Origin: Accumulibacter sp.
Lineage (GTDB): Bacteria; Pseudomonadota; Gammaproteobacteria; Burkholderiales; Rhodocyclaceae
Length of the DNA stretch: 64,000 nucleotides
Direction of reading: 5' to 3'
Assembly (NCBI RefSeq): GCF_023806635.1
Contig: NZ_JAMTDQ010000046.1
Location: forward strand, 56,757 to 120,756
Each line of letters opens with the position of its first letter. The first letter of the stretch is position 1. Below, in pieces: positions 11,896 to 22,704 of the stretch. A program made the translations under genes and the position numbers. The notes beneath the pieces were generated by a model. It searched no databases. It was not told the DNA's origin and saw only the letters and a program-made list of their open reading frames with translations.

Positions 11896-14800
11896 ATGAC
11901 GACATCCAGCTTCCGACATGTCCCCTGCGGAGTGCCGGTCAATGCGAGCGAGGCACTCGCCATCGCGAAAGTCAAGGGCAGGCTGCAAGGCATTCCGGGT
12001 CCGTGGGTGCTGTTGTCGAATATCAGCCATTCCAGCCATTCGACGCGGCTTTCCGATGAGATCGACCAAGTCATCATCGGCCCACAGGGAGTCTTTGTGG
12101 TCGAGGTCAAGCATTGGGACGCGGCGTGGATGAAGCAGAACGCAGCGGTCGTCGACAACGAGGCCGAACGCATCAACGACAAGGCCAAGCGTGTCGCCGG
12201 AAAGTTGAAGACCGCCTTCGACCCCGGTTTCGTCGCGCCACGTCTTCTGCTCACGCGCGGCGGAACAGGCGTCCAGGCGGGGAAGCGCATGCAGAGTCGC
12301 GGCGTCCCGATATTCGGACCTGGCGAGTGCCGCGACTTGGTCGACGCGGAAGGTGCCGTGTGCTTGTCTGCCGCTCAGGTCGAGCGCGCCGCCTTGTTGC
12401 TGGAACCGGCGGCCCGGACCACACTGACCTGCGACTTGCGCAGCTTCGCCGGGCTGATCAATCTCGAGCGAATGCCGACGCCCGATGCACCCTTTCACCG
12501 AGCCTATCGCGGTCAGCATCCGACGCGGCGCGACAAGGTCGTTCTGCATCTCTACGATCTTTCCGCCACTGACGAGAAGGATGGAGGGAACCGTGCCAGG
12601 CGCGAATACGAAGTCATGCAGCGCTGGCAGAAGTCACCGTATCTGCCCAACCTGCTCGACTCCTTCCAGGAAGCCGAGCGGTATCCGGGCGAGCTGTACT
12701 GGTTCTCCCTGGTCGACCCTGGCGCGCCAACGCTCGCCGAACGTGTCAAGGACGCCAACTGGGGTCTGGACGACCGCCTGCGCTACGCGCGCCAGGCGCT
12801 CCTGGCGCTGGCGGAATTTCATCAGCCGCACGAGCCAGGATTGCAGCGCATCGTTCACCGTCACATCACGCCGCATACCCTGCGGGTTCGCCACAACGGA
12901 TGCCCGCTGTTCCCCGACTTCAGCCTGGCCCGCCTGGACCAGGCGCTGACGATTTCGCTTGCCCCCACGGATTTCGGGCAGGACTCCCCTTATGTTGCCC
13001 CGGAGGTTCGTCAAGATGGCTTGGCGGCTGCGGATACGCGGTCGGACGTGTATGCCCTGTGCGCCAGCCTGGTCACCGTTTTCCCTGGGGACGAACCGCG
13101 CGCCCGCGAAGCGCGCCAGTTCCTGGAACAAGGTTGCGCCCATAATCCGGAGGGGCGTGAGTCGCTTGCCGAACTGGCCGCCGTTCTGGAGCGGAACACC
13201 GCGCCGCTTGCCAGGCCGACGCTCGACCTTCCGGCGCCGGAGTACTGGGACGAAGACACCGTAGTGCCCTTCCAGCGGGCGCACTTCAAGATCATCAGCC
13301 GCCTCGGCCGTGGCGGCGTCGGCCAGACCTTCAAGGTCGTCGAAGTCGATGCGCGCTCCGATGAAGTCTTCGGCAGCTACGTTGCGAAACTGATCCACCA
13401 CCAGAGCGACGCCGACGTCGCGCTGCGCGCCTATCGTCGGGTGCGCGCCTACACGATCCACCCGCACCTTTCGGCGATCCACGAAATTGCCCCCGAGTGG
13501 CAGGCGGATCGCTTCGTCGCCCTGATGAAATGGGTCGAGGGAACCCCCGTGTCGGACCTGACCGGCGTGCTTGCCTTGCAGGCAGATGATTTGGGCGAGG
13601 CCAGCCTGCAGGACCTCTTGTTGCGCTGGCTGCGAGACCTGAGCGACGCGCTCTGGGCCTTGCATCAGGTTGGCCTGGTACATGGCGATGTCAGCCCGCG
13701 CAACATCATCGTCCAGGGCGGGGAAGTGGTTCTGACCGATTACGATACGGTGACCGAAGCCGGCAAGCCGGTACGCAACCGCAACCCGCTGTACGCGAGC
13801 CATGGCGTCGACAACGGTGCGCCGATCCAGCCTGGCGATGATCTCTTCGCCCTGGCCGCCAGTTTGTTCCATGTGCTGTTCGACCGTTATCCCTTCGACT
13901 TCGCCGGGCAACGCAGCAAGAATCGTGGCTTGAATTGGCAAGGAGTGGAAGACAAGGGGCTCGAACGGGTGGTCGAATTCATGAAGCGTGCGACCTCGCC
14001 CGTCGACGGCGAACGGTTCGCGGATGCCCATGCGGCGTTCGCGTTCCTCAAGGCTGCGACGTTCGAAGGCGCAGCCGTTGGCGAGCCGGTCGTGTCGCCG
14101 CTTTCGGCCAACACCGCACCGCGGCTGACCGAACTGCTCTCGGCCTACCCGGGGTCGCGCCATGGCAACAGCGAAACCCGCGGCCTCGATTCACCGGTCG
14201 CCGCGACGACCTACGTGGAGACCCGCCTGGATGGTGTCTTGCGGCGGGAGGTTGAGGACGATCAGGTGCACCTGGCGATCCTGTTTGGCAATGCGGGCGA
14301 TGGGAAGACAGCCTTTCTGCAGCATCTACTGGCCGCGCTGGGGGTTCCCGATGTCCATTCTTCGCAGCGCGTGCAGGAGCGTCGCCTGGCCAACGGGCGC
14401 ATGTTGAAGGTCAATCTCGATGGGTCGGCAGCCTGGCGGGGCCAGTCGGCCAACACCCTGCTCGACCAGTTCTTCCAGCCTTGCCATGACCTCGATTTCG
14501 CCGGCGCCGCACCCCATCCGCGGATTCTCGCGATCAACAGCGGCAAGCTGCTCGAGTGGTTGGACGCGCAGGAAGATACCCCGCTCTGCGAAGGACTTTA
14601 TGCTGCCCTGTTCGACAGCGAAGGCGACGAGCAAACGGTGCTCGACCCGCGAATTCGCCTGATCGACCTCAACCGGCGTTCGCTGGTGGGAGGTCTTGCC
14701 GACGGCGAGCTTCGCACCGATTTTCTCAATGCGCTGCTGGACCGATTTCTCGGCATTGGCGACGAGACCGATCCATGGGCGGACTGCGCCACCTGCACCG

Positions 14801-15336
14801 CGCAGCACCGTTGCACCGCGTGGGGTTCGGTAAGCAGTTTGCGCGACCGGCATACCGGCCCGCGCCTGCGACTCCGGTTGTCCGATGCGCTGCAAGCCTG
14901 TCACCTGCGCGGCGAGATCCACATCACGGCGCGCGAACTGCGGGCAGCGCTGGTTTTCATCTTCTTTGGCGTGCATGACTGCGGCGAACTCCATGCCGAC
15001 CCGGAATTGATGCCAATCCGCTATTGGGATCGGGCGTTCGCCGCCGAGGCGCCGCAACGGCAGGGAGAGCTGCTGGCTGAACTGGCTCGTTTCGACCCGG
15101 CGCTGGACAGCAACCCCTCGTTGGACCGGCACCTGCTCCGAGACACCCCCCACCGCGCGGACGAGATCGGCGCCGCGCTGGCCTCTGCTCGCCGCCGCGC
15201 CTGGTTCGAGTGGGATGATGCTCGTTACGCGGCCCTGCAGCTTCCCACCGATGCCCTGCCGTTGTTCGGTGGCCGGCATCTCGATCGCTTCCGCCGCGTA
15301 CCGCTGATGAACCTAGATTCCTCTGTTAAGCCTTGA
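11896..15336 (+). CDS. PglW/MAD6-like NERD-kinase-kinase-ATPase protein, 5' part, truncated by a miniature element
   Basis: This huge defence-type protein is read for 1139 native residues before a miniature element adds a short foreign tail and a stop. Domains in order: a NERD nuclease-like domain (DEIDQVIIG at 54-62, EVK at 70-72); a degenerate kinase domain (~200-395) with HRH instead of HRD at 321 and DFS at 341; a second, intact-looking kinase (glycine loop at 471-476, K498, HGD at 596-598, N603, DYD at 615-617); and a P-loop ATPase region (GNAGDGKT at 798-805) with a CxxCx5C cluster at 964-973. NERD plus kinase architecture is typical of BREX PglW and of the MAD6 kinase of methylation-associated defence; this assignment is from memory of those families. 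Residues 1140-1146 (LDSSVKP region) come from the insertion. Confidence 0.8.
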   Translation: MTTSSFRHVPCGVPVNASEALAIAKVKGRLQGIPGPWVLLSNISHSSHSTRLSDEIDQVIIGPQGVFVVEVKHWDAAWMKQNAAVVDNEAERINDKAKRVAGKLKTAFDPGFVAPRLLLTRGGTGVQAGKRMQSRGVPIFGPGECRDLVDAEGAVCLSAAQVERAALLLEPAARTTLTCDLRSFAGLINLERMPTPDAPFHRAYRGQHPTRRDKVVLHLYDLSATDEKDGGNRARREYEVMQRWQKSPYLPNLLDSFQEAERYPGELYWFSLVDPGAPTLAERVKDANWGLDDRLRYARQALLALAEFHQPHEPGLQRIVHRHITPHTLRVRHNGCPLFPDFSLARLDQALTISLAPTDFGQDSPYVAPEVRQDGLAAADTRSDVYALCASLVTVFPGDEPRAREARQFLEQGCAHNPEGRESLAELAAVLERNTAPLARPTLDLPAPEYWDEDTVVPFQRAHFKIISRLGRGGVGQTFKVVEVDARSDEVFGSYVAKLIHHQSDADVALRAYRRVRAYTIHPHLSAIHEIAPEWQADRFVALMKWVEGTPVSDLTGVLALQADDLGEASLQDLLLRWLRDLSDALWALHQVGLVHGDVSPRNIIVQGGEVVLTDYDTVTEAGKPVRNRNPLYASHGVDNGAPIQPGDDLFALAASLFHVLFDRYPFDFAGQRSKNRGLNWQGVEDKGLERVVEFMKRATSPVDGERFADAHAAFAFLKAATFEGAAVGEPVVSPLSANTAPRLTELLSAYPGSRHGNSETRGLDSPVAATTYVETRLDGVLRREVEDDQVHLAILFGNAGDGKTAFLQHLLAALGVPDVHSSQRVQERRLANGRMLKVNLDGSAAWRGQSANTLLDQFFQPCHDLDFAGAAPHPRILAINSGKLLEWLDAQEDTPLCEGLYAALFDSEGDEQTVLDPRIRLIDLNRRSLVGGLADGELRTDFLNALLDRFLGIGDETDPWADCATCTAQHRCTAWGSVSSLRDRHTGPRLRLRLSDALQACHLRGEIHITARELRAALVFIFFGVHDCGELHADPELMPIRYWDRAFAAEAPQRQGELLAELARFDPALDSNPSLDRHLLRDTPHRADEIGAALASARRRAWFEWDDARYAALQLPTDALPLFGGRHLDRFRRVPLMNLDSSVKP

Positions 15337-15487
15337 CCGGATTTGATGAACGCCAGATTTGGCAAGGCTTTGCGGCCGATTTTGGCAACTGCGCCACAGT
15401 TCCTTTTGGGTGTCCCAGAGACATTCGAAAAATCCAATCTTCATAGCAACTTAGCTGCCATTCCTGGCTTCAACTGAGGAATCTAGG
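15312..15487. mobile_element. 176-bp miniature inverted-repeat element with IS1380-type ends
   Basis: The element begins CCTAGATTCCTC (15312-15323) and ends with the exact reverse complement (15476-15487). The inverted repeat continues imperfectly inward (GTT then AAGCC in both arms). It is flanked by a perfect 5-bp duplication ATGAA (15307-15311 and 15488-15492). It has no coding capacity. CCTAGATTC ends plus a 5-bp duplication are features of the IS1380 family (for example ISEcp1), so such a transposase probably moved it in trans. Removing the element and one ATGAA rejoins the flanking reading frames. Confidence 0.88.
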
Positions 15488-15991
15488 ATGAACGACGACG
15501 ATCGCGCCGTCCTGTGCCGTGACCTGTGCCTGGGTGTCGCCCGGCTGGAGGATCTGCCCGAAGCCGCGTTCTCGCGCGACTCGGGTCTGCCGCTGCGCAT
15601 CCAGCCACGAACCCCGACCGAAAGCACCTACTGGGTGGTCAAGCCCTGGCAGCGTTTTCGCCTCGAAGCACGCCTGCCACGGACCGCCGAAGGTCTGGAA
15701 GCGCTGCATACGCACTTGCTGCTGATCTATGCCTACGCGGCCGGTGGCGAAGAGCGGTTGCCAGTCGGCCTGGAACTGTTCCATCTGCTGCTGGGGCTGA
15801 AAGAGGGCGCCCAGCTTTCCGGCGCCGGCCAGGAAGGTGTGTTCGCGCATCTCGAAATCTTCACCCTGCGCCTGGCGCAGGAGGACGCCCGCGAGCTGTA
15901 CGGCTGGCATCCCGGTGATGAGGCCGGCGTGTTCAGGGTGTGCGTCGAAGCGCGGAGTGGGCGGCAGATTCTGGTCAGGGAGGCCGCATGA
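15488..15991 (+). CDS. Detached C-terminal 167 residues of the PglW/MAD6-like protein
   Basis: This reading frame starts at the ATG that is the right-hand copy of the 5-bp target duplication. It encodes 167 residues (MNDDDRAVLCRD...) with no recognised domain. Joined to the upstream gene without the insertion, the frame is continuous (PLMN|DDDRAV) and the ancestral protein is 1304 residues, a normal PglW-like size. The end of the miniature element supplies GAGGA seven bases before the ATG, so this piece may still be translated separately. It ends overlapping the next gene (GCATGA), showing the original operon coupling. Whether the two halves can assemble is unknown. Confidence 0.8.
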   Translation: MNDDDRAVLCRDLCLGVARLEDLPEAAFSRDSGLPLRIQPRTPTESTYWVVKPWQRFRLEARLPRTAEGLEALHTHLLLIYAYAAGGEERLPVGLELFHLLLGLKEGAQLSGAGQEGVFAHLEIFTLRLAQEDARELYGWHPGDEAGVFRVCVEARSGRQILVREAA

Positions 15992-16944
15992 ACGCCCGAA
16001 CCATCGTCGAGAATGTGCTGACGCCAGCGCGCGCCAAGGCTTTGTGGACTGCCAACTATTTGCCGGCCCTCCCTTTCACGCCGCAGGACTTCCAGGTGGG
16101 CAGCCTGCTGCCGGCGATGCTGTACATGGCGCGCTGGGGCCACCGGCGCGGAAAGGGGCGTTTTGTCGAGACCTTCGGCCGACCAGACTCCAAGGGAAGA
16201 ATTCAGCCGCCTTGGCTGATCGATGTGGCGAGGGGATTGCTGACTCGCTGTAGCGGCGATTTTTGTGGCTTTTCCGACGAGCATGGCCCTGCCATGCTGG
16301 CCGATCTGCTCCTGACCTATTGCCTGGAGAACAGGCAGCATGAGTTGGGGCATCATGAGGTGGTGCAGCGGGTTTTCCCAACCCATTACTTTGCGAGCTG
16401 GATCGATCTACCTGATGTGGTGGTCAACTTGCGCGGTGTTCCGGAACTGCTGACCACCGTGCTCGCTTGGCAGGACATGGGCGAAGCGCTGGTGCCCGAG
16501 GCCGGTCGCAGCCGTTTTCCGGTCGGCGTCGGCTTCGCCGAAAACCACTTGCTGAAGCAGTTTGCCCGGCACATGTCGGTACGTGGTCCTGCTGCCAATC
16601 TGGGCTCCGACCAGTTCCAAGAGGAGAGCGCCGACGACCTCGGGGTAGACGAACTGCTCGCCGTGCGCCTGGCGGAGAGCTGCGGCCACGCACCCGACCG
16701 ACTGAGGGGCAGGGAACAGGCACTGATCGCCAATCGCTGGCCCATCGCCAAGGCTGCCGCCAGAAGACTGCGCGACGATCTGGCGACCTTCATCGAAGTC
16801 TATGGCACGGCACTGCCGCGTCAAGCCTTCCTGCCGATGCTCGAAGCAGGGATTGGCCTTGGCATGGTCAACCTGCTGTTGTCTACCGCGGTCTGCCTGT
16901 TGGGTGCAATTGAAAGTGCGACTGGCGCCGGCGCGAGGCGCTAG
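15988..16944 (+). pseudogene. Second island gene (MAD7-like position), 5' fragment, interrupted by a miniature element
   Basis: The ATG overlaps the previous stop codon (ATGA). The first 305 codons (to 16901) are native; the remaining codons to the TAG at 16942 are element sequence. I recognise no domain. The protein is mostly helical, with an RWGHRRGKGRFVETFG basic stretch near residue 50 and a hydrophobic stretch (LGMVNLLLSTAVCL) just before the break. Splicing out the element gives a continuous 592-residue product. Its place between the NERD-kinase gene and the third large gene fits a conserved partner of that system, for which MAD7 is the nearest name I can offer, without sequence proof. 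Confidence 0.7.
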
Positions 16945-17073
16945 TGGCCACGGTAGACTTGTTCTGGCGCCAACGCATGGGGCTACCGTCATTCCGGCGC
17001 AGGCCGGAATCCAGCTCGTTCGTCAAGCTTCTCTCTTAGCAGTCGGTCGACAGTCGCACTTTCGATTGCACTC
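16902..17073. mobile_element. 172-bp miniature inverted-repeat element with 9-bp target duplication
   Basis: The ends form a 23-bp terminal inverted repeat with two mismatches: the left arm starts GGGTGCAATTGAAAGTGCGA and the right arm, reverse complemented, starts GAGTGCAATCGAAAGTGCGA. The flanks carry a perfect 9-bp duplication CTGCCTGTT (16893-16901 and 17074-17082). Inside is a strong palindrome ATTCCGGC-GCAG-GCCGGAAT (16991-17010). It carries no gene. A 9-bp duplication differs from the neighbouring IS1380-type element, so a different transposase family was responsible; I cannot name it. Confidence 0.86.
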
Positions 17074-17082
17074 CTGCCTGTT

Positions 17083-17947
17083 CGAATGGGAACGAACCGG
17101 CGGCATACCGGAAGACCGGAAGCCGATGCCCTTGTTGGTGGACTGTTCGCACGGCATGGACACGAAGCTGCGCAACGCTTCTGAAGCCGCAATGAGCGAA
17201 TGCCGGGCCCGCTACGAGCGGCTACCGGTGCTCATGATGCTGGCGCGACTGCTGGATGACCGTATCAGCCACCACCCGAGGCTGCACCGCGAACTGCCTC
17301 CACGGCAGCCTGATCCGACAGTCTGGTTCAATCTGCTGGGCGATATCTACCACGAACGGCATCCTCGGGCGGAGTCGATCAGGGAGCGACTCGACGAAGA
17401 TTCCCTGCGTCTGGCCGATGATCTGGAGCAGGCGGGTGAGGCGCTGGAAGTCGCACGAGCGTTGCGAAACGACCACAACAATCCGGCGTTGCGCCTGGCG
17501 GAAGCACTGGTCGAGTTGCACGGGCATCAGCAACAGGGCGGCCAGTTCGCGAGGGCATTGGACAGCAGCCTGATGCCCAACCGCCCCAACGGCCTCGCCT
17601 TCAAACGCCGCGTTACCCGGAGCGAGGCCGGCATCAGGAGGGCGGCGGACCTGCGATCGATCGTGCTCTCGCACGCCCTGCTCGACTTTCTCGTCCATCG
17701 CCACCTGCGCAAGGACGGCGAAGGCAAAGCCGCGCGTCCACTCACCCTGCGCAGCTTCCTCGACATTCTGCGCGCGCACTATGGCCTTTACGTGGACCGT
17801 GAGCCACCGGGAATGTCCGTTCCCCAGGACCTGCTGCGTGCCAACAAACAGTGGCTCGAACGGCGCCTGCGCGACCTCGGGTTGCTCGTCGGGGTGAGCG
17901 ACGCGGAATCGATGAAACAACTGCGCGCACGCTTTGATGTAGCATGA
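17083..17947 (+). pseudogene. Second island gene, 3' fragment
   Basis: This is the remaining 287 codons of the 592-residue gene, starting CLFEWERTGGIPEDRK in the restored frame and ending RARFDVA. It has no native start; an ATG at 17126 could give a 273-residue product. The segment is charged and helical, with a basic C-terminal third (HRHLRKDGEGKAARPL) but no motif I can name. Intact codon use and absence of internal stops suggest the insertion is recent. It is followed 33 bp later by the nucleotidyltransferase gene. Confidence 0.7.
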
Positions 17948-17980: not shown

Positions 17981-18589
17981 ATGCTCGCATCACTCCTCTT
18001 CGGCGATTACCGCCAGAAAGTCCTCGCCCGCTTGCTGCTGCACCCGGAACAGAGCTATCACGTCCGCGAAATCGCCCGCCTGACCGGCACCAGTGCCGGT
18101 ACCTTGCACAGGGAACTGGCGCGGCTCGCCCAGGCGGGCGTGCTGACACGCGAGGAGATTGGCAACCAGGTTCGTTACGGCGCCAATCGGCGGTGCCCGA
18201 TCTACCCGGAGCTGGCCGGCATCCTGCGCAAGACGTCCGGCCTCGCCGATGTGTTGACGGAAGCCTTGTCCACCTTGCGCGAACGCCTCACGCTGGCACT
18301 GGTGTTCGGTTCCGTCGCGCGCGGGGACGAGGGGCCAGGCAGCGATGTCGACGTCCTGCTGGTGGGGGATATTGGCTTCGCCGAGGTGGTGCGGGCCCTT
18401 CACGAAGCGCAGCCGAGCATTGGCCGGGAGATCAACCCGGTGGTCCTGTCGTCTGCCGAGTTCGACGACAAGCTGAAGGGCGGCGACACCTTTCTCGCCG
18501 CGATCCTGAGCGGAAAGAAGATACTCCTGATCGGAAACGAGGATGAGTCTGGAAAACCTGCTGGCAATCCAGCGCCTGGTTCGGCATGA
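17981..18589 (+). CDS. HTH plus MNT-type nucleotidyltransferase (antitoxin of an MNT-HEPN pair)
   Basis: The 202-residue protein has an N-terminal winged-helix domain (YHVREIARLTGTSAGTLHRE, ~25-45) and a C-terminal minimal nucleotidyltransferase domain with GSVARGDEGPGSDVDVLLV (~108-126), i.e. the GS...GSDxD catalytic signature. MNT proteins of this kind act as antitoxins that modify their HEPN RNase partner, and the adjacent overlapping gene is a HEPN gene. The pair sits between the second and third genes of the broken defence operon, so it may be a passenger or a built-in module. No clear ribosome binding site precedes the ATG. Confidence 0.85.
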   Translation: MLASLLFGDYRQKVLARLLLHPEQSYHVREIARLTGTSAGTLHRELARLAQAGVLTREEIGNQVRYGANRRCPIYPELAGILRKTSGLADVLTEALSTLRERLTLALVFGSVARGDEGPGSDVDVLLVGDIGFAEVVRALHEAQPSIGREINPVVLSSAEFDDKLKGGDTFLAAILSGKKILLIGNEDESGKPAGNPAPGSA

Positions 18590-18969
18590 GGCGGGGCGCT
18601 CCGTCGTCCTGAAGCTGCTCGCGGCGGCGGAACGGAACCTCGCCGATGCCAGGGTCACGGCGATCAGCGCGGAGAACCGCTTCGATGCCGCCTACAAAGC
18701 CATCCTGCAATGCGCGCTGGCGGCCCTCGCGGCCAGAGGCTATCGCAACCTCGACCAGCCAACCCGGGCACCACCAGACCGCCATCCAGACGCTCCCGCT
18801 GACCCTGGCCGTGGACAACGGCACCGTGATCGTCCTTGACGCGCTGCGCAAGCAACGCCATCTGACCGACTACACAGGCGACGGTGTCAGCGAAGCGCTG
18901 CTGGCGGAATGCATCGCCCAGGCCGAGTCCCTGTTGCGCCACGCTCGAGCCGCCCTCGGAGATCCCTGA
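18543..18969 (+). pseudogene. HEPN-domain toxin gene with a +1 frameshift
   Basis: The frame opens MSLENLLAIQRLV and proceeds normally to GYR (codon ending 18746). One extra A at 18747/18748 then shifts it; the native continuation TSTSQPGHHQTAIQTLP is found in the +1 frame and runs to the stop at 18967-18969. Correcting one base gives 141 residues, the family's usual length, with the conserved LRKQRHLTDYTGD tail. As it stands, translation ends in a 98-residue frameshifted product. The ATG overlaps the end of the MNT gene. A sequencing or assembly error at this AA cannot be excluded. Confidence 0.8.
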
Positions 18970-18970
18970 C

Positions 18971-19817
18971 ATGCCTCTCACCGAAAACGCCGCGCCGATC
19001 CTGTCGCTTGCCCTGAGCGATCTGTTGGGACCGGCACTTCCCGGCAGCATGGCGTTCATTCGCTGCCTGCCGGGCGAGGTCGCGCGCGAACTGGCTGCCG
19101 ACGAACGCTTCGCGGTTCGCGGCTGGCAGATTGCCGTGGTCAGCCAGGCTGCCGACGCGGCCATCCGTTCGATCACCGCCGACCAGGCCGTGGAGTGGCG
19201 CGAGGACAAGGCGGGGGCGGTGCTTCTGCTGGTGGATACCGTCCACGCCGGCGCCGGCATGGACGGCATCTACAGTGCGGCACGCGAGATCGCCGAGGCG
19301 GAGCTGTTCGCCACGGCAAGATCTCGGGCGCGTGACAAACTGCCGCACGGCGGCAAGAGTTTCGCCGACAAGGCGCTGTCCAAGGCACGCCGACTGGCGC
19401 GCAACAAGGCGCAGTCGCCCTGGCGTGAATTCGCCTATCTGTGCCGCGCGGCTCGGGGTCTGCAGGCTCTGGGCGCGGCGCTGCCCGAAATCGGGCTGTG
19501 GCCCGTGGCGGTGGACGACAGGCCGGACGACGGCGACCTCGAGAAGTCCGCCCTTCTGGTCGAACGTCTGCTGGCCCGCCAGGGTAACCGAAAGTCGGCC
19601 GAAGCACGGGTCGTCAGTCTGCAACTGCCGGAAGCGGATGCGGCGGTCGAGCGCACTCTGGCAGAATTCCTGCGGGCAGCGGAGAGTGTGTCACGGCTGG
19701 ATGCACTGGCGCGCCTCGAAGGACAGGAATCGCTCTGGGTCAATCGTCTGCGCCCTGGTCTGTTCGATAGCCAGGCCTTGCAGGCGATTCGGTGGGTCAA
19801 TTGGCGCCAAAAAAACA
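18971..19817 (+). pseudogene. Third large island gene (DptH/MAD8-like), N-terminal fragment cut by IS1634-type element
   Basis: The frame starts one base after the HEPN stop (MPLTENAAPILSLALSDLL) and gives 282 native residues before the insertion sequence. Recognisable features are weak: a segment VLLLVDTVHAGAGMDGIYSA (~78-97) and a basic stretch around ADKALSKARRLARNK. From memory this opening resembles the large ATP-binding DptH/MAD8-type proteins, but I cannot prove it. The predicted ATPase domain would lie downstream and is not present in the window. The apparent reading frame continues 21 residues into the element before its stop. Confidence 0.6.
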
Positions 19818-21925
19818 CTAGCCCATCTTTAACATCCCATACGCATGTTTTGAGCTTTCTGGGCAGGGCTCAATCGTAAGCTGTTGATTTTGCGTAGGGT
19901 GAATTTTTCTTGCGTTGTGTAGTGCCATAATAGTTCTCGCTTGGTGGGTCGACCTCTTGCTTTTGCGGTACGATCGGGTGCATGTTCATCCGACAAACGA
20001 GAACCGGCAACAAGGCGACGGGCGAAAGCTACGTCACCTACCGACTGGTGCGCACCGAGCGGATTGGGGGCAAGGTCCGTCAGATCACGGTGTTGAACCT
20101 CGGCCGCCACTTTCCGATCAAGCAGGAAGACTGGCCGATCCTGTGCAGCCGCATCGAGCAGTTGCTGAATCCGCAGGCGTTGCTCCTGCCGCTGCAGTGC
20201 TCGGAGCATGTCGAACGTGCAGCGCAGCGTTACCATGCGCAGCTGGTTGCGCGCGCACCGGTTGTCGCGTCGGCGACGGAGGGGGGTACGGCCGGATTGG
20301 CCGGCAAACCTTGCTCGCCTGCGGACTTCCAGGAAGTCGACGTGGACTCGCTGCAGATGACGCAGCCGCGGTCGGTGGGCGTCGAACACGTCGGTCTGCA
20401 TGCGGCAAACGAACTGGGTTTGATCGAGACGCTGAATGAACTGGGCGTCAATGGGGTGATGCGGGCATCGATCCTGGGCAATCTGATCGGGAGAATGGGG
20501 CAGCCGGGGTCGGAACTGGCGACCTGGAGCTGGCTGCAGCGGCAGAGCGCGCTGGGCGAGTTGATTGACGTCGACTTCTTGTCGATGTGGCACATGAGCC
20601 TGTATCGCGCCTCGGACGTCTTGATGAAACATCGGGAGGTGATCGAGACGCGTTTGTTCAGTACCGCCCGGACGCTCTTTGATCTGCAGGAGACGGTCAC
20701 GCTGTACGACCTGAGCAACACCTATTTCGAAGGCGAAGCCAAGGGGAATGGCAAGGCTAGGCGAGGGCGTTCGAAGGAGAGGCGCAGCGACTGCCCGTTG
20801 GTGACGCTCGGATTGGTTCTGGACGGCAGCGGCTTCGTGCGGCGCTCACAGACCTTCGCCGGCAACGTTTCCGAGCCCGGCACGCTGGCGTCCATGCTCG
20901 CCGGACTGGGGACCCCGGCGGGCGCGCTGGTGGTGATGGATGCCGGCATTGCCACCGAGACCAACGTCGCCTGGCTGGTCGAGCACGGCTATCGCTATCT
21001 GGTCGTGCGTCGCGGGGGGGTGCGCCAGTTTGATGAGACCCGCGCCGTGACCATCGAGACCGCTGGCGAGGAGTGGCTGCATCTGCAGAAGGAACTGAGC
21101 CCGGATGGCCAGGAGCTTTGCCTGTATTGCCACTCACCGAGTCGGCAACTCAAGGAAGAGGCGATGCTCGCGCAATCCTGTGGGCGTTTCGAAGCCGGCC
21201 TGCAGCAAATGAGTGCCGGCCTGCAAAAGCCCAGGAGTGAAAAGAACCACGACAAGCTGCTGGAACGTCTCGGCCGACTCAAGCAGAAGAACCGCGGCGC
21301 CAGCCAGCACTACCAGGTCCATCTCGTCACCGAGGAGAGTGGCAAAACGGTGACGGCGATCACTTGGCAGAAGGTGCCGGTTCCCGGCACGATGGCCACG
21401 CATCCCGGCGTCTATTGCCTGCGAACCAACGAACTCGCCTGGGATGAAGAGAAGCTCTGGCGTACCTACACGATGCTGACCGACCTGGAGAGTGTGTTTC
21501 GCAGTCTGAAAAGCGAACTCGGCTTGCGACCCATCCATCACCACAAGGAGCTTCGCTCGGACGGACACCTGTTCATCACGGTAATCGCCTACCAGTGCGT
21601 TCAGTTCCTGCGCGTGAAACTCAAGGCCGCGGGAATCACCGACAGCTGGGCGACCCTGCGGGACACCCTCTCCGTACAACGCCGGGTGACCGCCACTTTC
21701 AATCAGCGTGACGGCCGCTCCCTGCATGTGCGCAAAGCCACCGTCGCCGAGCCCGACCTGCTGGCGATCTATCGCGCGCTGGGCATCACCGCCGCACCCG
21801 GAGGAACCAGAAAACTGATCAGCTGAATCAGAAATTGCGGGCCTGTAGTGCCACTGGAGATTTTCTTGGCGCGCAAGCAATTGATTCGGATGAAGGTTTT
21901 TCTTGGCGTGTTAAACTTGGGCTAG
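19818..21925. mobile_element. IS1634-family insertion sequence, about 2.1 kb
   Basis: The element is bounded by imperfect inverted repeats: the left end reads CTAGCCCATCTTTAACATCC and the right end, reverse complemented, CTAGCCCAAGTTTAACACGC. It contains one transposase gene in its own plus orientation. I found no target duplication: the bases just outside are AAACA on the left and GCCTT on the right. Dropping 5 bp in addition to the element would bring the flanking frames of the host gene together, so the insertion is probably in the host gene but one flank has since changed, or the boundary is off by a few bases. Confidence 0.8.
19982..21826 (+). CDS. IS1634-family transposase
   Basis: A 614-residue DDE transposase of the IS4 superfamily, IS1634 group. 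The N-terminus (MFIRQTRTGNKATGESYVTYRLV) is typical. The catalytic residues lie in LYDLSNTYFEGEA (first D), LVVMDAGIATETN (second D) and YTMLTDLESVFRSLKSELG (E), the last matching the group's Y-(2)-R-(3)-E-like region. The length is within the family range and no stop or frameshift is visible, so it may still be active. It lies fully inside the element that splits the third island gene. Confidence 0.93.
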   Translation: MFIRQTRTGNKATGESYVTYRLVRTERIGGKVRQITVLNLGRHFPIKQEDWPILCSRIEQLLNPQALLLPLQCSEHVERAAQRYHAQLVARAPVVASATEGGTAGLAGKPCSPADFQEVDVDSLQMTQPRSVGVEHVGLHAANELGLIETLNELGVNGVMRASILGNLIGRMGQPGSELATWSWLQRQSALGELIDVDFLSMWHMSLYRASDVLMKHREVIETRLFSTARTLFDLQETVTLYDLSNTYFEGEAKGNGKARRGRSKERRSDCPLVTLGLVLDGSGFVRRSQTFAGNVSEPGTLASMLAGLGTPAGALVVMDAGIATETNVAWLVEHGYRYLVVRRGGVRQFDETRAVTIETAGEEWLHLQKELSPDGQELCLYCHSPSRQLKEEAMLAQSCGRFEAGLQQMSAGLQKPRSEKNHDKLLERLGRLKQKNRGASQHYQVHLVTEESGKTVTAITWQKVPVPGTMATHPGVYCLRTNELAWDEEKLWRTYTMLTDLESVFRSLKSELGLRPIHHHKELRSDGHLFITVIAYQCVQFLRVKLKAAGITDSWATLRDTLSVQRRVTATFNQRDGRSLHVRKATVAEPDLLAIYRALGITAAPGGTRKLIS

Positions 21926-22550
21926 GCCTTACCAATGGTCCGGCTTGGCTGTGGATACCGACAACCGCCTGACATTCAAGCTGGCGCTCGAAGACAACCC
22001 GCAGCAGCGAGTCAGGCTGGAAGTGCGGTGGGATGCCGAGCCGGCCACCTTGGCCAAGGGCGCCGTCGACTACATCGTTGAAGTCCGCGCCGGTGGCGAC
22101 GCGCTGGCGGAGAAGACCGTCACGCATGTCGCCCGAGGGCCGCAGAAGTGCGTGTTTACCCAGGATGACTTCGGCGATCTCGAAGGAAACGAGCGCTTCG
22201 AGGCGGAGGTCGTCATTCGAGCGCTGACGGAGGAAACCCTGCCGGACAGCGATGCTGCGGGCAGCACGCACCACGCGGTCAGCGAGGACTTCATCCTGTG
22301 CTTCGGGGTCAACGAGCAGCCGGCCAGGTCGAGCGCCGGCAACGTCTTCCCCAGCCTCGCGTTGGCCGCGATTCAGGTGGCGAGAGACGCCGAAACGTTC
22401 GACCGGCTGGCAGACAACCCGGGCAACCGACAGGCCTTCAGCGCCGACAAGAGGGGCTATATCGCCTGTCGCGTGGAGGGCAAGGCGGCGCGCGTGCTCT
22501 GCCCCAACCTGCTGCTCGACTTGGCGGCCGATTGGGCAGTGCATCAGGGC
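21926..22550 (+). pseudogene. Third large island gene, internal/C-terminal fragment
   Basis: After the insertion sequence an open frame resumes with PYQWSGLAVDTDNRLTFKLALED and stays protein-like for about 205 residues (GNERFEAEVVIRALTEE, FGVNEQPARSSAGNVFPSLAL). From about 22550 to the frame's end at 22721 the translation turns into low-complexity Arg/Pro/Gly sequence that looks like non-coding DNA, so the gene is also cut at its 3' end. The frame overlaps the tail of convergent pssA. No start codon of its own is convincing (a TTG at 21945 is possible). The exact junction near 22550 is my estimate. Confidence 0.55.
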
Positions 22551-22704
22551 GACCCGGGCGGCCACGGCCGCCCTGCACCCTGTCTGCCAGAGTCGGAACG
22601 GCGGCGGGATGGTTGCGCCGGCGCCGACCGCGGCCAAGGGAAATCATCGGCCTTGTGGCTACCCGCGCGCGGCGAGCTGCAGGTGTCCTGGTTCCGCAGG
22701 CGAC

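Follow-up and report, generated by a model that had tools for sequence, protein, structure and literature searches.

Insertion elements are usually read either as knock-outs or as promoter donors. Within the IS1380 family, IS1247 is listed with an IR of 16/13 and a DR of 5 (Table 2, PMC3281130), and family members are described as carrying outward promoters that drive neighbour genes (PMC9330008). Among miniature elements, MITEAba12 of Acinetobacter is described as supplying, with some of its copies, the 5' ends of adjacent genes (MQQS) (PMC6382973). The names MADS and Ssp, used below for a cluster of defence-like genes, come from profile libraries. In this study we analysed a 64,000-nucleotide stretch of DNA from Accumulibacter sp. 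(the window), in which a miniature IS1380-type element splits a gene of a MADS/Ssp-like cluster. The window features described lie on the + strand, and their coordinates are positions of the window.

The element, MITE-A, is an IS1380-type MITE of 176 bp (15312..15487), assigned from its ends, its copies, its 5-bp duplications and an interior that resembles the C-terminus of an IS1380 transposase. It is bounded by a left terminal inverted repeat, CCTAGATTCCTC (15312..15323), and a right terminal inverted repeat, GAGGAATCTAGG (15476..15487), the latter containing the Shine-Dalgarno (SD)-like motif GAGGA plus a TAG one base before the flank. The ends form a perfect inverted repeat over 12 bp and are 94% complementary over 16 nt, and the GC content of the element is 48%, as compared with 66% for the window. 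A target site duplication, ATGAA, is present to the left (15307..15311) and to the right (15488..15492), the right copy being the source of a candidate restart ATG. When the flanks were joined by script minus one ATGAA, a single open frame of 1304 residues resulted, with PLMNDDDRAV at the junction. This frame, gene 1, is in its intact form a 1304-codon NERD-kinase-kinase-ATPase gene. Its 5' part (11896..15336) encodes 1139 native residues, comprising NERD, two kinase stretches and an SspF-like region, followed by LDSSVKP from MITE-A and a TGA stop at 15334-15336, while its 3' part (15488..15991) is an open frame of 167 codons. A first-pass annotation, made from the letters of the window, had described a 176-bp element with 12-bp perfect repeats and an ATGAA duplication, which was correct to the base, and its claim that removal of the element and one ATGAA restores a 1304-residue protein across PLMN/DDDRAV was confirmed by joining the flanks. 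It had also called the miniature element IS1380-type, which is supported by the comparisons that follow, and had proposed a search for further copies and for an IS1380 transposase.

The first 17 bp of MITE-A are identical (17/17) to the end, AACAGAGGAATCTAGG, of an IS1380-type element on contig C99 of the sister genome G022, which is 1730 bp long and carries a 538-codon transposase frame. The other end of the G022 element resembles that of the IS in MITE-A's own genome, and its flanks, ATTAA and ATCAA, are one base apart. The own-genome IS1380-type transposase gene lies on C118 in a 1744-bp element with the duplication TTTAC, a second, cut copy being found on C6, and the ends of this IS, CCTATTTTCCTC, are somewhat different from those of MITE-A. 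The best family for both transposases is NCBIfam NF033539, at 123.8 and 130.9 bits, which is under its cut-off of 180, and the own-genome transposase scores 43.3 bits against Pfam PF13701, over the cut-off of 34.7. With respect to the interior, the frame of a MITE-A relative in G013 aligns ungapped over 34 codons with the C-terminus of the G022 transposase at a score of 69, and 0/500 shuffles were as good. The correct frame of the own MITE-A scores 40 against the same protein (1/500 shuffles), its other frames reaching up to 37, and a G004 copy scores 35 (31/500 shuffles). Against the own-genome transposase, 113, 26 and 118 of 500 shuffles did as well as the own, G013 and G004 copies, respectively. 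At the DNA level, identity between the own MITE-A and the own-genome IS is 71% in a 56-bp match (E 2.4e-4), and identity between the G013 copy and the leftmost 62 bp of the IS in G022 is 74%. MITE-A thus combines IS1380-matching ends, a 5-bp duplication, short length and multiple copies without a transposase gene, and an IS1380-derived interior. Because of the ends, the 5-bp duplications and the transposase-like interior, it is most likely a non-autonomous IS1380-family element from which most of the interior was deleted, a reading that is well supported by these sequence comparisons.

The genome carrying the window (4.47 Mb, 119 contigs) holds five whole copies of MITE-A, all 100% identical and all with perfect 5-bp duplications (ATGAA, TTCAT, TTCAT, TTCAA and ATAAA). 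One more match, to positions 15-176, stands at the start of contig C48, with TTGAA at its C48 end. The start of contig C116 reads a repeat, then AACAGAGGAATCTAGG and TTCAA, which fits the reverse-complemented left end of the C48 copy with a TTGAA duplication, and the sixth copy would accordingly be split over the two contigs (C48 1-217 and C116 1-69), apparently interrupted around position 15 by a further repeat. That repeat, with the end CGGTATGA..ATCACCT, is recurrent in several sister genomes. Eleven of the 12 exact MITE-A end matches in the genome fall in the six listed copies and the 12th on C116; with all 12 accounted for, that of C116 by inference, no autonomous element with the 12-bp ends of MITE-A was seen in the own assembly. 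C116 had itself been considered as the site of an autonomous partner, a notion that was dropped since the C116 end agrees with the left terminus that the C48 copy lacks. In a set of 61 genomes (own and relatives), MITE-A matches occur in 6, own counted, all of one genus, those in G017 and G019 being partial. Among contigs of named genomes, the exact-end pattern was found in four stretches, from the Accumulibacter MAGs UW9-POB and UW12-POB, a Rhodoferax and a Chromatiaceae MAG; the junctions in UW9-POB and UW12-POB are the same as in G013 and G021, which are genomes of the window's genus. Viral contigs contained 0 stretches with this pattern, and plasmids gave no MITE-A match by blastn. One MITE-A copy (L001 1501-1676, on G000 C55) sits in a frame that by eye resembles an IS110-type transposase, where the empty site reads through. 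G681, a genome from the same order, carries 25 such ends in its 3.0 Mb and may be a site of spread.

The split gene had been called a giant defence protein. By profile it does resemble MAD6 (E 2.8e-52, 178.1 bits, cut-off 460; 184.7 bits for the uninterrupted G022 homologue), PglW (42.8 bits, cut-off 990) and SspF, although the MAD6 and PglW scores lie below the curated cut-offs. Gene 1 is therefore defence-like by similarity, with membership in MADS, Ssp or BREX not proven by these scores. A PDB profile search of the 167-residue tail gave three matches, the best at an E of only 0.088, and the AlphaFold2 model of the isolated tail, with a mean pLDDT of 40.2, was set aside.

Gene 1 belongs to a four-gene cluster that has taken up other insertions. 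Gene 2, which is MAD7/SspG-like, consists of a 5' part (15988..16899, 304 codons aligned) and a 3' part (17075..17947, 290 codons aligned), split by a second miniature element, MITE-B (16902..17073; 170-172 bp; ends GGGTGCAAT/ATTGCACTC). MITE-B has a 9-bp duplication, CTGCCTGTT, as read from the sequence, and three further genome copies with 97-100% identity over 170 bp. Gene 3, an HTH plus nucleotidyltransferase gene (PADLOC PDC-M05A), is uninterrupted (17981..18589). The 5' part of gene 4, whose start codon is uncertain (18884..19816), and its 3' part (21924..22559, 205 codons aligned from 21945) are separated by an IS1634-family element (19817..21923; transposase 19982-21826), the only full copy found in the own assembly, with approximate borders set by alignment to the empty site in G022 and G014. 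In G022 and G014 all four genes follow one another free of these insertions, the G024 cluster is without gene 3, and the clusters of G006 and G075 are truncated, either by the end of a contig or by the limits of the sequence compared. In the window, each fragment of genes 1, 2 and 4 retains an open frame. The uninterrupted gene 2 of G022 scores 106.6 bits against MAD7 (cut-off 410), such that MAD6 and MAD7, the components considered for MADS, both score under their equivalog cut-offs, as does the PglW of BREX type 2.

We consider it likely that MITE-A inserted recently into this MADS/Ssp-like cluster gene with a net loss of function and at most weak reinitiation. An IS1380-family MITE would have transposed into the codons of Met1138-Asn1139 of gene 1, duplicating ATGAA, and the protein would end after residue 1139 with seven residues added. 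The GAGGA-TC-TAG-G end of the element, together with NTNAN targets (often ATGAA, ATGAT or TTGAA), would then place an SD and a start codon ahead of the severed tail and in its frame. What the sequences show is the element itself, the other copies, the NTNAN preference and the disruption of gene 1. That the event is recent is suggested by the identity of the copies. Loss of function, with weak reinitiation at most, is inferred from the predicted sequestration of the SD, the distant upstream stop and the damage elsewhere in the cluster. A point against inactivation is that the tail has an open frame and shares 64-87% identity with the C-terminal ends of seven uninterrupted homologues, as expected if it were still used; this carries little weight, because the identical copies suggest too young an insertion. 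The open frames in the broken genes 1, 2 and 4 also fit recent events.

On the simplest reading, the MADS/Ssp-like cluster recently lost function and later insertions were then free to occur. A cause can be added to this account, i.e., that the cluster was costly and that the three insertions were retained because they switch it off. Such selection would suit the finding that three of the four genes were struck within 6.6 kb, for which the chance that a MITE-A, a MITE-B and the IS lie so close together is ~2e-4 under uniform random placement of 6 MITE-A, 4 MITE-B and one IS copy, a value computed after the pattern was seen, and it would also suit the frame-shifted pieces in which gene 1 is found in G014 and G024. 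However, insertions that follow a first inactivation are neutral, so that clustering is possible without selection, the frame shifts, coming from draft genomes, may reflect faulty assembly, and insertion hot spots are also possible, which leaves selected inactivation a doubtful addition to the loss of function that we favour.

The first-pass annotation had drawn attention to a Shine-Dalgarno sequence close to the duplicated ATG, and this arrangement is syntactically valid, with AGGA and GAGG ending 7 and 8 nt before the ATG, respectively. It is also ordinary rather than rare: counting both strands, the window has 1543 ATGs, of which 193 (12.5%) are preceded by a 4-base SD match at a spacing of 5-10, and 27% of the 1543 have an equal or better anti-SD pairing energy in the 20 nt upstream. 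Some initiation at the tail ATG may be possible, given that its predicted SD pairing is stronger than at 73% of the ATGs in the window. The upstream stop ends at 15336, which is 9 nt past the 16-nt left repeat, so the upstream frame covers this repeat, and 151 nt lie between the stop and the new ATG. In read-through RNA the terminal repeats pair, a 241-nt fold having a z-score of -3.5 with 0/200 shuffles as stable, and within a 401-nt read-through RNA the SD bases are predicted to be unpaired with a probability of only 0.00-0.01, held in the terminal-repeat stem. A ribosome footprint modelled at the upstream stop gives 0.10-0.54 unpaired for the SD bases, and blocking of the whole left repeat gives 0.07-0.36, i.e., they are still largely paired. 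In a 71-nt local fold without the left repeat, only the GG of GAGGA is paired, but the AUG is paired too. These models suggest that upstream translation may partly open the SD, and strong coupled synthesis would not be expected.

These results bear on the proposal, made in the first-pass annotation, that the insertion turned one polypeptide into two coupled ones with preserved function. For this to be so, the element end would have to give a working restart and the two polypeptides would have to reassemble, with upstream translation through the left repeat melting the stem and exposing the SD in the right repeat. The proposal draws on the SD-like GAGGA at 7-8 nt, the in-frame ATG, the open and conserved tail, and the position of the left repeat, which does lie within the upstream frame. 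We nevertheless find it improbable and do not uphold it, for stop and start are well separated, the SD stays largely paired even when the left repeat is blocked, two further cluster genes, 2 and 4, are interrupted as well, and the MITE-A copies are identical, leaving no time for selection to show.

Homologues of gene 1 speak to whether the two frames belong together. A search with the tail found matches in 6 genomes among 200 relatives and in 3 among 369 genomes of the class, the own genome being counted in both. In 7/7 homologous loci the tail is in one frame with residues like those before the insertion, and at the G022 site PLMNEDERAG is read straight through. The first-pass annotation had proposed a search for uninterrupted homologues aligned across the junction; the counterexample it had named, homologues that end at the first stop with the second frame separate, was not found among these genomes. 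The view that the two frames are separate genes by nature, the first ending near 15336, has on these alignments virtually no probability and is refuted within the 200 and 369 genomes searched, its sole point in favour being that the window shows two frames. Some homologous frames are broken further upstream, namely those of G014 (L030) and G024 (L031), where gene 1 is in frame-shifted pieces (2/5 clusters compared), representing either decay or assembly errors.

With MITE-A read as a disruptive insertion, the restart site can be placed in the context of the element's target preference. The right end reads GAGGA-TC-TAG-G and is followed by the target, and flanks of the form NTNAN (T at position 2, A at position 4) were found at 36 of 38 distinct ends, as compared with a base expectation of about 3%. 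Ends were considered distinct by their 12-nt flank, with both ends of an insertion counted; ends with changed repeats (one in G021, and the pair belonging to a single G013 copy) were excluded, the flank AGCCT at two G164 places was counted once, and 10 of the 25 G681 ends were taken in. Eight of the 38 are followed by ATG and eight by TTG (together 16/38). In nine genomes chosen for having such ends, ATG stands directly after 8 of 50 ends, where 0.8 would be expected at 1 in 64. It is because of this end sequence and this NTNAN preference that an SD-start precedes the severed tail, and the restart site is therefore not a one-off or special event.

The frames behind the eight ATG-flanked ends measure 407, 73, 105, 9, 162, 167, 84 and 290 codons. 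The 407-codon frame starts at the element edge and matches MacB/FtsX-type permease families; the 162-codon frame has no Pfam match and by eye looks like a secreted protein, and the 290-codon frame is antisense to a frame that is IS110-like by eye. This survey makes it less likely that the element targets the native starts of genes: by eye, the 407- and 162-codon frames look as if they began at native starts, and the window's 167-codon frame is internal. A 294-bp element with the same ends (L089 1223-1516, on G164 C91) adjoins the ATG of a MacB/FtsX-type permease frame; its flanks differ (AGGCT left, ATGAT right), and it may be part of a rearrangement.

A broader generalization, which we offer tentatively and on balance lean against, is that IS1380-type ends of the GAGGAATCTAGG class act as a portable stop-restart module, consisting of GAGGA, TAG, one base and a target-supplied start (ATGAA, ATGAT or TTGAA). 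By arithmetic, an element length of 2 modulo 3, a 5-bp duplication and an in-frame target start bring the upstream frame onto the TAG and the downstream copy into frame, unless the element has an earlier in-frame stop. Of eight copies examined, five are of such a length, and two of them (G013 and G004) have a frame that is open as far as the TAG, while in the window's MITE-A the TAG-directed frame is closed early by TGA. If the module were real, insertions into genes would often yield translationally coupled halves, or a new ribosome binding site at a gene's own start, and such insertions would be less damaging than ordinary ones.

A second split gene illustrates the arrangement. In Accumulibacter UW9-POB (L035 3508-4807), and with the same junction in G013 (L043), an 81%-identical relative of MITE-A splits another gene. 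The upstream frame of 271 codons in G013 continues across the entire element as far as the TAG in the right repeat, where it ends. One base past this TAG stands a TTG from which the other 160 codons can be read in frame, and at the empty site the frame is continuous. For neither piece did Pfam give a match above a cut-off, and by eye the protein looks membrane-bound. Judged by sequence, it is UW9-POB/G013, rather than the window, that appears to be the clearest stop-restart case.

Taken together, the end sequence of a transposon and the targets it prefers can add up to a putative ribosome binding site, stop and start, and the same class of ends repeatedly makes possible restarts. If translation from such sites is real, some 'interrupted' genes of draft genomes would be two-piece genes rather than pseudogenes. 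The titles and abstracts of the open-licence papers surveyed gave no description of a Shine-Dalgarno sequence, or of an SD-stop-start arrangement, in IS1380-family ends. In the window itself, mobile elements have interrupted a defence-like cluster at three points, which illustrates how such systems may disappear from an environmental bacterium.

Compared with described systems, MITE-A shares short terminal repeats and 5-bp duplications with the IS1380 family (IS1247, ISEcp1, ISPme1), and the elements of the IS1380 transposases in the own and sister genomes have ends similar or identical to its own; it differs from the family in being 176 bp long and without a transposase gene. Whereas outward promoters are described for IS1380 members, the end of MITE-A offers a putative translation start, and a consensus scan found no sigma-70-like promoter at 15280-15520. 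Like MITEAba12, as far as that element is described in the source cited above, and other bacterial MITEs, MITE-A is short and non-autonomous, has IS-like ends, occurs in several copies and inserts into genes. Its duplication is 5 bp in length as opposed to 9 bp in MITEAba12 and, unlike in the MITEAba12 copies described, the putative SD lies in the terminal repeat, the start comes from the duplicated target, and no element residues would be added to the tail. With regard to MADS, Ssp and BREX, gene 1 is similar to MAD6, PglW and, in its P-loop part, SspF, and gene 2 is similar to MAD7/SspG; the cluster differs from these systems in scores far under the curated cut-offs and in the kinase and ATPase-like regions, which are here joined in one chain.
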